The notes below the pieces were generated by a model. It saw nothing but the letters and a program-made list of their open reading frames with translations, had not been told where the DNA came from and searched no databases. Below, piece by piece: positions 5,967 through 11,497 of a stretch of 15,730 nucleotides of DNA. How positions within the stretch are numbered: position 1 is the stretch's first letter; the number at the start of each line of letters is the position of its first letter. Location of the stretch: assembly GCA_013824045.1 (NCBI GenBank), contig PNND01000351.1, positions 1 to 15,730 on the forward strand, read 5' to 3'. Both the position numbers and the translations under genes were made by a program. Source of the stretch: Rhodobacter sp. GTDB taxonomy: Bacteria > Pseudomonadota > Alphaproteobacteria > Rhodobacterales > Rhodobacteraceae.

Positions 5967-6065
5967 TGTTCTATCCTATGGAACGATAATCCATAATATA
6001 TGTAATTTTCTAAATTTCCAACACGCCTTACCTCACGGGCCATGATCCCTGACCCGGAGACAGCC
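5967..6065. promoter_or_regulatory. AT-rich divergent control region of lysR and dabBA with overlapping dyads
   Basis: The first 60 bases or so of this spacer are strikingly AT-rich inside very GC-rich DNA. Three overlapping dyads have centres about one helical turn apart: GTTCTAT-CCT-ATGGAAC (5968-5984, one mismatch in the arms), TATGG-N9-CCATA (5977-5995) and CATA-ATA-TATG (5992-6002). CATAAT (5992-5997) is a five-of-six match to a -10 element for dabB; the corresponding -35 is poor, as expected for LysR-activated transcription. The first dyad also spans the lysR ribosome-binding site, so the lysR mRNA could fold GUUCCAU against AUAGAAC with AGGA near the loop. Promoter assignment is inference. 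Confidence 0.5.
6056..6059 (+). promoter_or_regulatory. Ribosome-binding site fixing the dabB start
   Basis: GGAG lies six bases before the ATG at 6066. The in-frame upstream ATG at 6042 has no comparable site, so the shorter reading (MTSLPLTAL) is preferred. Confidence 0.7.
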
Positions 6066-7610
6066 ATGACATCCCTGCCCCTGACCGCCCTCGCCCCCCT
6101 CGTGCTGCTCGCGGCCATGCTGCCCTTCCTCGCCCGCCCCGGCCGCCGCCCCGGCCGACTGCCGCTCTTGGCTGAAGCGGCCACCCTCGCCAGTCTTGTC
6201 CTCGCCCTTGCCGGGCTGGCCCAACTCTGGGCGGGCGGCGCGCAGGTCCTCGCTCTGGGCGACATGGCGCTCCTGCGGCTCGATGCAACCAGCGTCACCA
6301 TGGCACTGCTCGTCACTTTCGTGGGCTGGGTCGTGATCCGCTACAGCCGCCGCTATCTCGATGGCGAGGCGCGCGAAGGCAGCTTCCACGGCCTGACGCT
6401 TGCCGCCATCGCCGCCGTTCTCGTGCTGGTCACGGCGGGAAGCCTGCCGGTTCTGGTGGCAAGCTTCGCGGCCACCGGGTTGGTCCTGCGTCAGCTTCTG
6501 CTCTTCTACCCCGACCGGGCCGAGGCGCAGCGTGCCGCCGCCAAATTCATCCGGGTCTGGGTTGCGGGCGATCTTGCACTCATCCTTGCCTCGCTCCTCC
6601 TGTGGCAAAGCTTCGGCACCGTCAACATCGCCGCACTGACGCAGATCGAAAGCCTGCCCGCCGCCGCGCAACTGGCCGTTGCCCTCATCGTCCTCGCCGC
6701 CGCGCTGAAAACCGCCGCCTTCCCCCTTCACGGCTGGCTGACCGAGGTGATGGAGGCCCCCACCCCCGTCTCCGCCCTCCTGCACGCAGGCATCATCAAC
6801 TCCGGCGGCGTCCTGCTCATCACCCTTGCCGGGCTGGTGCAGCACAGCCCCGGCGCTATGGCGGCACTGGTGATGATCGGCGGTTTCACCGCGCTGTTTG
6901 GCGGTCTGGTGATGCTCACCCAAAGCGCCGTGAAAACCGCGCTGGCATGGTCCACCGTGGCCCAGATGGGCTTCATGCTGCTGCAATGCGGGCTTGGCCT
7001 CTGGGCGCTGGCACTGCTGCATATCGTGGCGCACTCGCTCTACAAGGCGCATGCCTTCCTGTCCTCGGGCGGCGCGGTGCAGGCGGTGAACGCCATCCGC
7101 AAGCCGGGGCCGGTGGCCGTGCCGGGGTTGGCGGCTGTGGCGCGCTCCTTCGCGCTGGCACTGGTCCTCTACGGGGCCGTGGCCTTGGGCTTCACCCAGC
7201 TCGTTGGCGAAAAGTCACCGCAGGCGCTGGCGCTTGGCGCGATGCTGATCTTCGGCGTGTCCTACCTCATCGCACAGGGTCTGGCGGATGCCGCCCCCGC
7301 CGCCCTGACGCAACGCACCATGGTCGCCTCTGTCGCCACGGCACTGGCGTATTTCGGCTTTCAGGTCGTGGCGCAAACCATCTGGGGCGCGTCCCTTCCC
7401 GCCATTCCGGTCGCCGGGGCGCTGGAATGGGCGTTGATCGTGCTGGCGATCCTGACCTTCGGCCTCGTGGCCTTCGCTCAGGCGCTGTTCCCGCTCTGGG
7501 CGCATCACCCCGCCACAGCCGGGTTGCGGGTTCATCTGGCCAATGGACTCTATCTCAACGCCCTCTTGGATCGCCTGATCGGCGGCTTCCGCACGGCCCC
7601 CAAGTCCTGA
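6066..7610 (+). CDS. dabB: DabB: NuoL/MrpA-like proton-conducting subunit of DAB inorganic carbon transporter
   Basis: A 514-residue polytopic membrane protein of the proton-conducting transporter family (NuoL/NuoM/MrpA antiporter-like), with more than a dozen hydrophobic segments. The family core is clear: LKTAAFPLHGWLTEVMEAPT with Lys215 and His222, followed by PVSALLHAGIINSGG, and later AWSTVAQMGFMLLQCGLGL and ALLHIVAHSLYKAHAFLSSG. Where NuoL has its glutamate-bearing TM5 motif, this protein has ATGLVLRQLLLFYPDR, as I expect for DabB-type members. It is not part of a complex I or Mrp operon: a DUF2309/DabA gene follows after 45 bp. DabA and DabB together form an energy-coupled system described in Halothiobacillus that accumulates inorganic carbon, with DabB thought to couple cation flow to CO2 hydration by DabA. 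The start at 6066 rests on GGAG six bases upstream. I see no break or truncation. Confidence 0.92.
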   Translation: MTSLPLTALAPLVLLAAMLPFLARPGRRPGRLPLLAEAATLASLVLALAGLAQLWAGGAQVLALGDMALLRLDATSVTMALLVTFVGWVVIRYSRRYLDGEAREGSFHGLTLAAIAAVLVLVTAGSLPVLVASFAATGLVLRQLLLFYPDRAEAQRAAAKFIRVWVAGDLALILASLLLWQSFGTVNIAALTQIESLPAAAQLAVALIVLAAALKTAAFPLHGWLTEVMEAPTPVSALLHAGIINSGGVLLITLAGLVQHSPGAMAALVMIGGFTALFGGLVMLTQSAVKTALAWSTVAQMGFMLLQCGLGLWALALLHIVAHSLYKAHAFLSSGGAVQAVNAIRKPGPVAVPGLAAVARSFALALVLYGAVALGFTQLVGEKSPQALALGAMLIFGVSYLIAQGLADAAPAALTQRTMVASVATALAYFGFQVVAQTIWGASLPAIPVAGALEWALIVLAILTFGLVAFAQALFPLWAHHPATAGLRVHLANGLYLNALLDRLIGGFRTAPKS

Positions 7611-7655
7611 TCCCCACCGCTCCGATCCCAGACACACCGATCAAGGAAACCCGAG

Positions 7656-10034
7656 ATGTTTCTCAAGCATACCGCGATTGCCCCCTCCCTCGCCTCGCAG
7701 TTCATCGCAGCGGCCGAGGCCGCGGCCCGCGCCATCCCCCCGGCCTTCCCGCTGGACGCCACCGTGGCGGTGAACCCCTTCCTCGGCCAGACCCACAGCG
7801 ATCTGGCCACCGCCTCCGCGCGGCTGGCGCGGGTGTCGGGTGCGCCCCTTACCCTGCCGCGCGCCGCCCTTGCCGCGCGGGTCACATCGGGCGAAATCAG
7901 CGATGACGATCTGGCCGCCGCCCTGATCGCCTCGCCCTCGCCGGTCAAGCCGCGCGATCTGGCCTGGCTCAAGGCCCGGATGCAGGTGGCCGCCCCCACC
8001 CCAGCGGCGCTGCCCACCGTAGCCGATCTGGCCGCCCGCGCCACCGGCACCGATTGGCCCGCCATCCTCGCCCGCAGCTTCGGCCTCTGGGCGGCGGGCT
8101 ATTTCGATCGCGGTCAGGCGCTCTGGACGCCGCGCTCCGGCCATGGGGCCTTCGCCGCATGGCGGGAATGGGCCACGCATGACCTCACCCCTGAAATCGC
8201 CGGATTGACGGGCTTCAGCGCCTTTGTTTCCGAAGCGCCCGACACCGCCGATCGCGCGCTTCTGCGCGCCACCGAACGGCTGGGTCTCACGGTCGATGCC
8301 GCCGAAACCGCCTTCCACCGCCTTCTCGCCGATCTCGGCGGCTGGCCGCAGCACGCGCGTTGGCTCCTGTGGCAGGCCGAGTTGAAGGGCGGCACCGACA
8401 CCACGCTGACCGATCTGCTGGCCATCCGCCTGCTCTGGGAAGAGGCGCTGCTTGCCCATGCGCCTATGGTGGCCGCCGATTGGGCCGCCACCGTCGCCGC
8501 CCATGCGTCCGAGGTCACCGCCACCCCCGATCAGGCGCTGGATGCTATCCTGCAGGATGCCGCCGAACGCGCGCATCAGCGCAAGCTGGCGGCCCTGCTC
8601 TCCGGCCCCACCCATCAGACAGGCCGCCCCGCCCTGCAGGCAGCGCTGTGCATCGACGTCCGCTCAGAAGTGCTGCGTCGCGCTCTGGAATCGCAGGACA
8701 GCAGGATCGAAACCTTGGGCTTCGCGGGCTTCTTCGGCCTGCCCGTCGCCCATCGCCCGCAAGGCACGGATGAGGTGCAGGCCCACCTGCCCGCCCTGCT
8801 GAACCCCGCCCTTATCTCCACCAGCCACAACGGCGCGGACAGCGAAACCGCCACCCGCATAACCGCACGGGCCAAACGCGCCTGGGGCCGGTTCCGTCAG
8901 GCCGCCGTCTCCTCCTTCGCCTTTGTCGAGGCTGCAGGTCCCCTCTACGGCGGCAAGCTCGTCCGCGATGCGCTGGGTCTGGGGGCAGACGGGCTCACCC
9001 CCGGCCCCCTGCCGCAGATCGAAGGCGGCCTGACCGCCGAACAAAAGGCTCAGACCGGCGCGGCCGTCCTGCGCGCCATGAGCCTGACCTCGGGCCATGC
9101 CCGGCTCGTCCTGCTCATCGGCCATGGCGCGCAGCTTACCAACAACCCGCATGAAAGCGCCTATCACTGTGGCGCCTGCTGCGGCCAGACGGGCGAGGTT
9201 TCGGCACGGCTCTTGGCCTCTCTCCTCAATGATCCTGAAACCCGCGCGGGCCTGCCCGCGCTGGGGCTGACCCTGCCCACTGACACGCTCTTCGTGGCGG
9301 GCCTGCATGATACGGTGACGGACAAGGTCACGCTCTACCGCGACACCCCCGCCCCCGATCACACCGCCGACCTTACGCAGGCCGAAAGCTGGCTCTCCGC
9401 CGCAGGCCACCTCGCACGCATCGAACGCGCCCTGCGCCTGCCCGGTGCCACGGCGCAAGGCATCGCCAGCCGCGCGTCCGACTGGGCCGAGGTGCGCCCC
9501 GAATGGGGCCTTGCCGGATGCGCCGCCTTCATCGCCGCCCCCCGCAGTGCCACCACAGGGCGCAATCTGGGCGGCCGCGCCTTCCTGCACAGCTACGATT
9601 GGACGCAGGATCAGGGCTTCGCCACGCTGGAACTCATCATCACCGCCCCGGTGGTTGTGGCCAGCTGGATCAGCCTGCAATATTACGGCTCCTCCGTCGC
9701 ACCGCAGGTCTTCGGCGGCGGCAACAAGCTGATCCACAATGTCGTGGGCGGCATCGGCGTGGTCGAAGGCAATGGCGGCCTGCTCCGCCCCGGCCTGCCT
9801 TTCCAGACCATCCATGACGGCACCGCCCCCGCCCATGACGCGCTGCGCCTCTCGGTGCTGATCGAGGCCCCCACTGACGCCATCACCGCCATCCTGCACA
9901 AACATGATGGCGTGCGGCAGCTCTTCGATAACGGCTGGCTCCACCTTTTCGCCTTGACCAAAGGGCAGATCACCGCCCGCTACCGCCCCGGTTTGGAATG
10001 GGAAAGCACCGCCCCAAAGGCATTTGCCGCCTAA
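7656..10034 (+). CDS. dabA: DabA: zinc-dependent, carbonic-anhydrase-like subunit of DAB transporter (DUF2309/UPF0753)
   Basis: A 792-residue protein of the DUF2309/UPF0753 family, now called DabA, the cytoplasmic-side subunit proposed to hydrate CO2 vectorially at a zinc site resembling beta-carbonic anhydrase. All four expected zinc-site residues are present: Cys332 and Asp334 in CIDVRSE, His490 in [12 protein letters not shown] and Cys505 in YHCGACCG. They match the Cys351/Asp353/His524/Cys539 set reported for Halothiobacillus, with the 15-residue His-to-Cys spacing preserved. Other family marks are AVNPFLGQ near residue 45, GFFGLPV near 355, and the C-terminal [25 protein letters not shown] and [17 protein letters not shown] stretches. 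AAGGAAA precedes the ATG by about seven bases. It is co-oriented with dabB, and a strong hairpin 25 bp past its stop probably ends the operon. The length is normal. Residue equivalence is by motif, not by alignment. Confidence 0.94.
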
Positions 10035-10059: not shown

Positions 10060-10094
10060 GACAGCAGGCGGCGCAGCGCGCGCCGCCTGCTGTC
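10060..10094 (+). terminator. Strong GC hairpin after dabA, probable terminator
   Basis: A perfect 15-bp stem (GACAGCAGGCGGCGC at 10060-10074 against its complement at 10080-10094) with a five-base AGCGC loop lies 25 bp past the dabA stop. No run of T follows, only CTTCCACC, so it may act as a Rho-assisted or weak intrinsic terminator, or protect the dabBA mRNA 3' end. It separates dabBA from the sensory gene pair. Confidence 0.6.
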
Positions 10095-10197: not shown

Positions 10198-11019
10198 ATG
10201 GCAAGACAGCAGGCGTCTCTCGACCCAGAGGTATTCACGCGCACCGCCTCGCTTTTCGCGGCAAAACGCTTGGCCTTTCCCCCGGATGCCGTCGGCGCTC
10301 TGGTCACAGACATTGTCCGTCGGCTCGCCGACTTCCGCGCGCAGGAACCCGTGTTCGAAGTCCCCGCCATCGGCGAGGACAGCATCGCTAGCTTCTGCGA
10401 GGCGCTGATCCAGCCCGGGGCCGAGGCAACCTTCCACTTTATTCAGGACCGCCGCGCCGAAGGCGTCACGCGGCAGGCCGTCTATCTGGGCTATATCACC
10501 GGGGCCGCGCGTCACCTTGGCATCGGCTGGGAGGAAGACCGATACTCCTTCCTTCAGGTCACCATCGGCACCGGCCATCTCTACGCCCTGATGCGCGCCC
10601 TGCGCGCCGAAGGGGCGGCGCTGCGCCCGGCCTTCGACATCCGCCGTTCGGCCCTCTTTGCCACCGTCCCCGGCGAAGACCACGGCATCGGCATCACCGT
10701 CGCCGCCGACATCTTCCGCGACGCGGGTTGGGAGATCGACCTGCAGACCTCCACCACCCATGACGCGCTGATGGCCCATGTCGAACAGACCCATCCCCTG
10801 ATCATCGGCCTCTCGCTCAGCACCGAACAGCGGCTGGATGCATTGGTGCGGCTTGTCGTGGCCATGCGCCTTGTCGTGCCCGAGGCCATCATCGGCGTGG
10901 CTCCTGCTGCTACGGTGGATGGCAAACGCCTGCGCGCCTTGGCCGATATCGATCTTCTCTTCACAGATGCACCCTCGGCCTATCGCGAACTGGATCGTCT
11001 CATCCGCCTTCGGGGCTGA
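10198..11019 (+). CDS. Cobalamin-binding-like (SCHIC/AerR-PpaA-like) sensory protein
   Basis: A 273-residue cytoplasmic protein. Residues about 60-140 look like the helical cap that precedes B12-binding domains in sensory proteins: AVYLGYITGAARHLGIGWEE, then DRYSFLQVTIGTGHL, which matches the W-x-x-D...F-x-x-VT pattern of AerR/PpaA-type proteins. Residues about 150-270 form a Rossmann-like domain with GEDHGIGITVAADIFRDAGW. His162 sits where the cobalamin or heme ligand His would be, but the motif reads E-x-H-x-x-G rather than D-x-H-x-x-G. The later S-x-L and Gly-Gly motifs are altered (GLSLSTEQ at 204-211 and GVAPAAT). These changes recall the heme-binding SCHIC domain of AppA rather than a classical B12 site. 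The start at 10198 follows a G-rich Shine-Dalgarno (10186-10191). The BLUF gene follows after 64 bp. I see no DNA-binding domain, so it probably acts through a partner protein. Ligand and partner are unknown. Confidence 0.78.
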   Translation: MARQQASLDPEVFTRTASLFAAKRLAFPPDAVGALVTDIVRRLADFRAQEPVFEVPAIGEDSIASFCEALIQPGAEATFHFIQDRRAEGVTRQAVYLGYITGAARHLGIGWEEDRYSFLQVTIGTGHLYALMRALRAEGAALRPAFDIRRSALFATVPGEDHGIGITVAADIFRDAGWEIDLQTSTTHDALMAHVEQTHPLIIGLSLSTEQRLDALVRLVVAMRLVVPEAIIGVAPAATVDGKRLRALADIDLLFTDAPSAYRELDRLIRLRG

Positions 11020-11030
11020 TCCGCTCTGCC

Positions 11031-11055
11031 CCGGCGCAAGTCCCAACCGCGCCGG
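11031..11055 (+). other. Intercistronic hairpin between SCHIC-like and BLUF genes
   Basis: CCGGCGC (11031-11037) and GCGCCGG (11049-11055) are perfect 7-bp arms around an 11-base loop, in the 64-bp gap between the two sensory genes. No T-run follows. It could lower downstream expression or stabilise the upstream mRNA, or be a chance product of high GC. Confidence 0.35.
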
Positions 11056-11083
11056 CCCACCCCTTTGCAAGAGAGGCGACCCT

Positions 11084-11497
11084 ATGACCCTGTTCCGGGC
11101 CATCTACAGCTCGCGCCCCTTCGGCTTTGACGCCGGGGTCCTGCACGGCATCCTCGACCAGGCCCGCCGCCTGAACCAGCGTGACGGCATCACAGGTGCC
11201 CTGATCTGCCGCGATGACATCTATCTGCAATGGCTCGAAGGTCCCGAAGACAAGGTCCGCGCCACGCTGGACCGCATCGCCCAAGACGACCGCCACCTTG
11301 AGGTGACGCTGCATGTGGCAGAACCCGCCGATGACCGCATGTTCGCCGACTGGGCCATGCTCCACGACCCGGCCACCAGCTGGATCTGGTCGCGCGCAGA
11401 CTTGGCCGACAACGCCATTGACCGCGCCACCCCGGAAGAGGTCACTGCCTTTTTCCTGCGCCTGCGCGGCACGGCTGAGGCCCGCACCTCCGATTGA
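11084..11497 (+). CDS. Short BLUF-domain blue-light photoreceptor (BlrB-like)
   Basis: A 137-residue stand-alone BLUF protein that should bind FAD and sense blue light in the cytoplasm. All key photocycle residues are in place: Tyr8 (RAIYSSR), Asn31 (LNQRDGITGAL), Gln49 (YLQWLEG), and Trp90 with Met92 (FADWAM). These correspond to AppA Tyr21, Asn45, Gln63, Trp104 and Met106 with near-constant spacing. The BLUF core spans about residues 3-95; the last 40 residues form the usual C-terminal helical cap, with no EAL, GGDEF or other output domain. The size resembles BlrB of Rhodobacter sphaeroides (about 140 residues). The start at 11084 has GAGAGG seven bases upstream. It lies 64 bp after the cobalamin/SCHIC-like gene on the same strand, a likely two-gene operon and a functional pair. 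Its stop is six bases from that of the convergent kinase gene. It must signal by protein contact; the partner is inferred, not shown. Confidence 0.93.
   Translation: MTLFRAIYSSRPFGFDAGVLHGILDQARRLNQRDGITGALICRDDIYLQWLEGPEDKVRATLDRIAQDDRHLEVTLHVAEPADDRMFADWAMLHDPATSWIWSRADLADNAIDRATPEEVTAFFLRLRGTAEARTSD

Follow-up and report, generated by a model that had tools for sequence, protein, structure and literature searches.

Adjacent genes for a B12-fold AerR/PpaA-like regulator and a short BLUF protein in Rhodobacter: a possible two-protein blue-light input to PpsR

We found a gene for a B12-fold regulator related to AerR and PpaA immediately followed by a gene for a short BLUF photoreceptor in a 15,730-nucleotide contig of Rhodobacter sp. 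(hereafter the window; contig C32 of assembly G000, which totals 3.2 Mb in 512 contigs and is 83% complete). We tentatively propose, with slightly less than even confidence, that the two proteins form a blue-light input to PpsR, as a trans-acting and independently assembled functional analogue of AppA. We found no report of such a BLUF/regulator pair in the open-licence literature. Rhodobacter capsulatus and Dinoroseobacter shibae have PpsR and PpaA but no AppA (PMC10890935, in extract), and the LOV-type protein LdaP is one answer to how blue light reaches PpsR in AppA-less phototrophs. A family of short BLUF proteins tied to genomes with PpsR and encoded beside B12-fold regulators in several arrangements would offer orphan short BLUFs a definite partner that can be put to the test.

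Both genes are real and lie on the same strand, 64 bp apart (Table 1), and the stop codon of the regulator gene (positions 11017 to 11019) means that they do not encode a single AppA-like chain. The preliminary description of this DNA had correctly noted their adjacency, their co-orientation, and a domain order reversed relative to AppA, with the regulator first and BLUF second. It had also placed them outside any visible photosynthesis genes, which is true of the window alone, since elsewhere in the genome, on contig C70, we found ppsR (541.5 bits; cut-off, 275.4), with its own ppaA-type gene directly alongside, and bchF, bchN, and bchH.

Table 1. Positions of the features discussed, in window coordinates
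Feature	Position	Strand	Basis or remark
Hairpin of 15 bp, G+C rich, no T run, very stable, between dabA and the regulator gene	10060..10094	+	z-score -4.51
B12-fold (AerR/PpaA-like) regulator gene, 273 aa	10198..11019	+	ORF, Pfam, tree (clade W)
Regulator layout: cap helices, about aa 56-140; B12-binding domain, about aa 148-270			Limits from sequence match
Cap codons W111 to F118	10528..10551	+	Equivalents of AerR W94/F101
Codon of H127, subfamily-specific histidine	10576..10578	+	Residue comparison
ExHxxG motif, E160-D161-H162-G163-I164-G165	10675..10692	+	Lower cobalt ligand position in AerR
A235-P236, at the GG place of PpaA	10900..10905	+	Residue comparison
Short BLUF photoreceptor gene, 137 aa, core 3-93 and C-terminal helices	11084..11497	+	ORF, Pfam, AlphaFold2

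We then analyzed the sequence of the regulator. It matched the B12-binding family of Pfam (PF02310) with 35.4 bits (cut-off, 32.1) and AppA_SCHIC (PF21966) with only 15 bits, below the cut-off of 28.6; all 62 aligned regulator members matched B12-binding, and 13 of the 62 matched AppA_SCHIC at E 0.01. The top match in the PDB was AerR of R. capsulatus (7te2), both with the single sequence (2.9e-8) and with a profile of 62 sequences that included PpaA-type ones (1.5e-46), followed in the profile comparison by a cobalamin-binding protein (1.5e-18), AppA (6.5e-18), and CarH (3.7e-8). Judged by sequence profiles, the fold is a cap followed by a B12-type Rossmann layout, as in proteins of the AerR/PpaA/AppA type to which it had been assigned beforehand. 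Searches of the regulator sequence with Pfam-type models detected no HTH or other DNA-binding domain, and the match to the CarH model was far below threshold (19.8 bits; cut-off, 400).

Three residues, G108, W111, and H162, were invariant in the 62 aligned members. W94 and F101 of AerR form a cap over the upper ligand of B12, and this pair is absent from AppA, where L239 and R246 occupy the two places and His284 is shifted by two positions (extracts of PMC9144470). The ExHxxG motif of the regulator has as its AerR counterpart E143xH145xxG148 (PMC6199135, in extract). The regulator is, on sequence grounds, a cobalamin-type relative of AerR/PpaA and not a heme-type AppA SCHIC domain, because it has the W111/F118 cap and carries ExHxxG at the AerR position; with AppA_SCHIC also below its cut-off, the earlier label "SCHIC" does not apply in the heme sense. 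The protein contains one cysteine and hence no Cys-rich tail.

The second protein matched the BLUF family (PF04940) with 88.5 bits (cut-off, 25). As claimed beforehand, it has the full set of photocycle residues: Y8, N31, Q49, W90, and M92 occupy what we take to be the places of the photocycle Tyr, Asn, Gln, Trp, and Met of AppA, and each was found in 121/121 sequences (the window BLUF and 120 homologs, the best of 1,386 matches). The AlphaFold2 model has a mean pLDDT of 91.2, and from these residues and the predicted fold we infer that the protein undergoes a BLUF photocycle. In a class-wide sample of 250 genomes, four in addition to G000 had matches to the window BLUF at E<=1e-15, including two from a single family with 53% identity. 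The residue next after the photocycle Gln, W50 (codon at 11231-11233), is Trp in the same 121/121 close homologs, among the best of 1,386 matches, and also in the regulator-linked Rhodobacteraceae BLUFs examined; most of the remaining clade members have Leu here, and so does the window-type BLUF of Methylobacterium bullatum.

The relation of the pair to AppA was evaluated with two trees, from both of which AppA of R. sphaeroides is absent, so that AppA-like fusions serve as its stand-ins. Four open reading frames combine a BLUF and a B12-type domain (in G080, G069, G437, and G422); the one from G080, the only fusion run against Pfam, scored 80.8 bits for BLUF and 24.4 bits, below the cut-off, for AppA_SCHIC. 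In a tree of 102 B12-type sequences, PpaA proteins encoded next to ppsR formed a clade of 10 (support, 99/87), and the window regulator fell outside it, in a clade of 16 that we call clade W (100/99). A weakly supported sister group of clade W (group X, 64 sequences; 88/80) was also recovered. The four fusions branched apart from the regulator's group (97/82), on long branches. In the BLUF tree (54 sequences), the window protein belonged to a clade of 33 (100/99), with the four fusion BLUFs outside. The pair had been described as a split AppA; as a statement of descent this is disfavored, and the two genes probably did not arise by division of an appA gene, because neither protein groups with the AppA-like fusions in these sequence trees. 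The occurrence of a PpsR-linked short BLUF family beside B12-fold regulators in several arrangements suggests repeated origins of the combination of BLUF and a B12 fold, both in cis and in trans.

Comparison of residues between the groups (group X being counted with three further sequences, 67 in all) revealed what sets the subfamily apart. Position 127 is R in 10/10 PpaA and 64/67 group X sequences and H in 13/16 of clade W; position 129 is Q in 10/10 PpaA and Y in 16/16 of clade W; position 236 is G in 10/10 PpaA and 67/67 group X sequences and P in 14/16 of clade W. Among the window protein and 119 homologs, the best of 415 matches, H127 and ExHxxG were each present in 120/120 and Gly at position 236 in 0/120. 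The tetrapyrrole pocket may be altered in this subfamily, since H127 is invariant in close homologs and the usual GG motif is lost.

We found one BLUF gene each in G000 and in two close relatives (G006 and G018, both 99% complete), hence no AppA in these genomes. The relatives keep the pair, with 88% identity for the regulator and 83-84% for BLUF. They also share the whole block of an ABC transporter, a LysR gene, dabBA, the pair, and an FGGY kinase, which demonstrates synteny and not independent selection. Genes for a proton antiporter-type DabB-like protein and DabA (positions 6042-10034) lie directly upstream of the pair; DabBA was rejected as a functional partner, as G000, G006, and G018 were the only genomes with dab genes next to the regulator among the regions scanned. 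No classical terminator was found downstream of dabA, only the hairpin of Table 1, which may mark a boundary between the dab genes and the pair. A further B12-type protein, of group X, is encoded in G006 and G018, about 6 kb past the BLUF gene in the downstream direction, and on contig C40 in G000, between HGSNAT-type and GbdR-like genes (L069 1320-2273; L061 about 17106-18209).

We then looked for the two genes in 394 genomes of the family, drawn evenly from 393 genera. The regulator was present at E<=1e-30 in 64, any BLUF in 137, and both in 32, and scanning the surroundings of the best regulator in all 32 (at least 1.5 kb per side where the contig allows) revealed 4 cases of adjacency, for an expectation of 0.05 to 0.14 at an assumed 4,000 genes per genome (binomial p, 1.8e-7 to 1.3e-5). 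Without the window's own genome, which had prompted the search, 3 of 31 were adjacent (p, 1.5e-5 to 3.7e-4). The arrangement varied: the two genes are adjacent and co-oriented in G455 and adjacent and convergent in G422, and the BLUF gene is convergent to a group X regulator in G387. In M. bullatum (Hyphomicrobiales), the order is BLUF-regulator-BLUF, all co-oriented (L242 7013-9228), and the two flanking BLUFs differ, with 56% identity between the second and the window BLUF. In G102, the regulator is followed at 749 bp by a BLUF of another type, with a possible opposite-strand ORF in between. Among the families recurring around these genes, the regulator and BLUF were found in 23 and 13 genomes and the next family in 5, with a crude gene finder. 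In protein searches listing the best 120 of 415 regulator matches and the best 120 of 1,386 BLUF matches, 6 of the 83 listed regulator clusters with a longest contig of at least 2 kb had a longest contig identical in length to that of a listed BLUF cluster (at least 6 kb in 5 of the 6), which points to the same contig, the distance between the genes being outside what these lists display. That the same two kinds of genes meet elsewhere in other arrangements suggests a joint function, probably in the switch of photosynthesis genes. Two of these loci have peculiarities of their own: residues 40-126 of the G455 regulator (L181 9861-10469), i.e., most of the cap, are missing in frame, by deletion or assembly error, and the M. 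bullatum stretch is without an annotated gene in the table of the collection.

The target of the pair had been called unknown; it can be narrowed, with PpsR as the leading candidate. PpsR was above the cut-off in 62 of the 64 genomes that have the regulator at E<=1e-30, the exceptions being G024 and G039, and in 37 of the 42 genomes with a window-type BLUF, the exceptions having no match (G165, G246, G457, and G039) or a match below the cut-off (G355). As a background, it was found in 28 of the 72 genomes classed as "same family" in the relatives set, some of which are also in the regulator and BLUF sets. Furthermore, a group X regulator is convergent to ppsR in four genomes (G063, G197, G314, and G444), the matches being 21-93 bp apart, with ppaA and bchFNBH-type genes on the other side of ppsR (bchB labeled by position only). 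Sulfitobacter sp. S190 and S. alexandrii have plasmid-borne regulator homologs from outside the tree set (40% and 34% identity) that adjoin a cytochrome c gene, beyond which lie chlG/bchG and bchP-type genes; the plasmid homolog of Rhodobacteraceae SC52 (38%) is without such surroundings. The window contains one match (0.94 expected) to TGTN12ACA, presumably the PpsR site consensus, and this match, located inside the BLUF gene, was dismissed as a link of the pair to PpsR, being at chance level.

It is rather unlikely, in our estimation, that the two genes provide separate inputs to the PpsR circuit, with the regulator acting on PpsR alone like PpaA, BLUF acting on PpsR, PpaA, or another factor, and adjacency arising through co-regulation, without contact. 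The regulator and the window-type BLUF co-occur in 20 genomes for 6.8 expected, which we dropped as evidence of partnership: on the base of PpsR-positive genomes, whose number is estimated, 19 are observed for 15 expected, hardly above, which speaks for separate inputs. Many PpsR genomes also have one of the two genes alone. We counted a window-type BLUF in 42 of the 394 genomes (44 at E<=1e-15 minus the partial matches in G356 and G428), and 22 of the 42, G228 included, have no regulator at E<=1e-30; a BLUF gene is adjacent in 5 of the 16 clade W members, unlinked in 2 (elsewhere in G309, on another contig in G307), and absent in 8, and G192 has a short piece of a window-type BLUF at a contig end. 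These 22/42 and 8/16 also weigh against a two-protein input to PpsR, as do the 19 observed for 15 expected and the retention of one member in G024 (a damaged regulator gene, with PpsR not above the cut-off) and in G457 (BLUF, with no PpsR match). Conservation of the pair in relatives is thus partial: it is kept in G006 and G018 and recurs elsewhere and as fusions, and only 5/16 clade W sequences are adjacent to BLUF. Against separate inputs, the several configurations of adjacency and the domain fusions exceed what co-regulation needs, and convergent neighbors are not one operon.

A light-controlled protein couple with a target other than PpsR, another repressor or an enzyme, would explain the enrichment of PpsR simply by the need of phototrophs for light sensing. 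The pair and the photosynthesis genes are indeed on different contigs, G457 has BLUF without a ppsR match, and a PpaA/AerR-like protein of R. rubrum acts beyond photosynthesis (extract of PMC10734443). Three residues of AerR, T105, S109, and Q112, were proposed as contacts of CrtJ (extracts of PMC9144470); the first is kept in the window regulator, as T122, and the other two are changed, to G126 and Y129, which speaks for another target and against our proposal. We consider this reading unlikely all the same, given the presence of ppsR in 62/64 regulator genomes, the group X proteins adjoining ppsR in four genomes, and the homologs near bch genes on plasmids. The regulator match retained in G024, where PpsR is not above the cut-off, moreover shifts frame near the C terminus. 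Damaged-looking regulator genes were seen twice (L067 1453-2256 and L068 9340-10149), as this change of frame in G024 and as one internal stop in G017. Finally, chance neighbors with unrelated roles, retained in three close genomes by plain synteny, would fit the syntenic block of G006 and G018, two genomes that therefore count for little; we consider this very improbable in view of adjacency in other genera and orientations, with another regulator group, and in a further bacterial order, and in 3/31 genomes even without the window's own.

For the two-protein input to PpsR, we envisage that the short BLUF protein absorbs blue light, switches, and passes the signal to the neighboring AerR/PpaA-like protein, presumably by direct contact. 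The cap helix of the regulator would make contact with PpsR, in line with proposals for AerR and AppA, and the light signal would change how the B12-type protein engages PpsR, with target and direction of effect both conjectural. The B12-type pocket, whose motif is observed, could carry a second input, probably a tetrapyrrole. Such a pair appears to have originated independently of AppA, by combining another BLUF lineage with a regulator of the cobalamin type, as the trees with fusions in the place of AppA indicate. A bolder version, which we regard as doubtful, is a system widespread in Rhodobacteraceae and evolved separately as an AppA equivalent, in which the stand-alone BLUF drives a dedicated B12-fold antirepressor in trans, the rebuilt pocket (H127 on the cap helix, GG lost) accommodates a tetrapyrrole in bis-histidine or tail-less form, and both chromophores are read by the complex at once.

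Known systems resemble the pair in part. AppA (Cereibacter/Rhodobacter sphaeroides) likewise combines BLUF with a B12-fold domain in a PpsR-bearing alphaproteobacterium, with the proposed blue-light input to photosynthesis genes in common; unlike AppA, the pair consists of two proteins in reversed order, with a W/F cap in place of L239/R246 and the shifted His284, and without a Cys-rich tail. AerR/PpaA shares the W/F cap, ExHxxG, and the best PDB match, 7te2; by contrast, the regulator is outside the ppsR-adjacent PpaA clade, has H for R127, Y for Q129, and AP for GG, and belongs to a genome that already has a separate ppaA beside ppsR on another contig. CarH and the photocobilins are B12-fold light sensors as well, and the GxxW and GxxH of the published signature, as given in excerpts, are present in the window regulator; it differs from them by V121-T122 at the EH place, located with what we take to be the spacing of the CarH signature, and by having neither a MerR-type HTH nor a globin-like domain. 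Photocobilins were considered as B12-BLUF fusions and set aside, their second domain being globin-like in the published description, from which the term BLUF is absent, as was LhfE, which its excerpt describes as a kinase and which is not relevant here.

In Pseudomonas mendocina, the adjacent short LOV protein PmSB-LOV and the class II LitR protein PmlR2 form a light-dependent complex (extract of PMC9758184), again a case of a small flavin-based blue-light sensor encoded beside an effector that has a B12-type helix bundle. This precedent shows that such an effector can be controlled in trans by a small flavin photoreceptor, although the extract concerns a LOV and not a BLUF protein, and an effector that is MerR-type DNA-binding and contacted through its HTH, which is absent here. 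LdaP of D. shibae is reported to be a stand-alone blue-light antirepressor of PpsR in a roseobacter without AppA (PMC10890935, in extract); it differs in being a LOV protein, and the extract mentions no adjacent B12-fold partner. Lastly, a third type of B12-like domain is encoded in G309 by a long ORF (L185 15507-17165), at a distance of about 5 kb from the window-type BLUF gene, which in this genome is not linked to the regulator.
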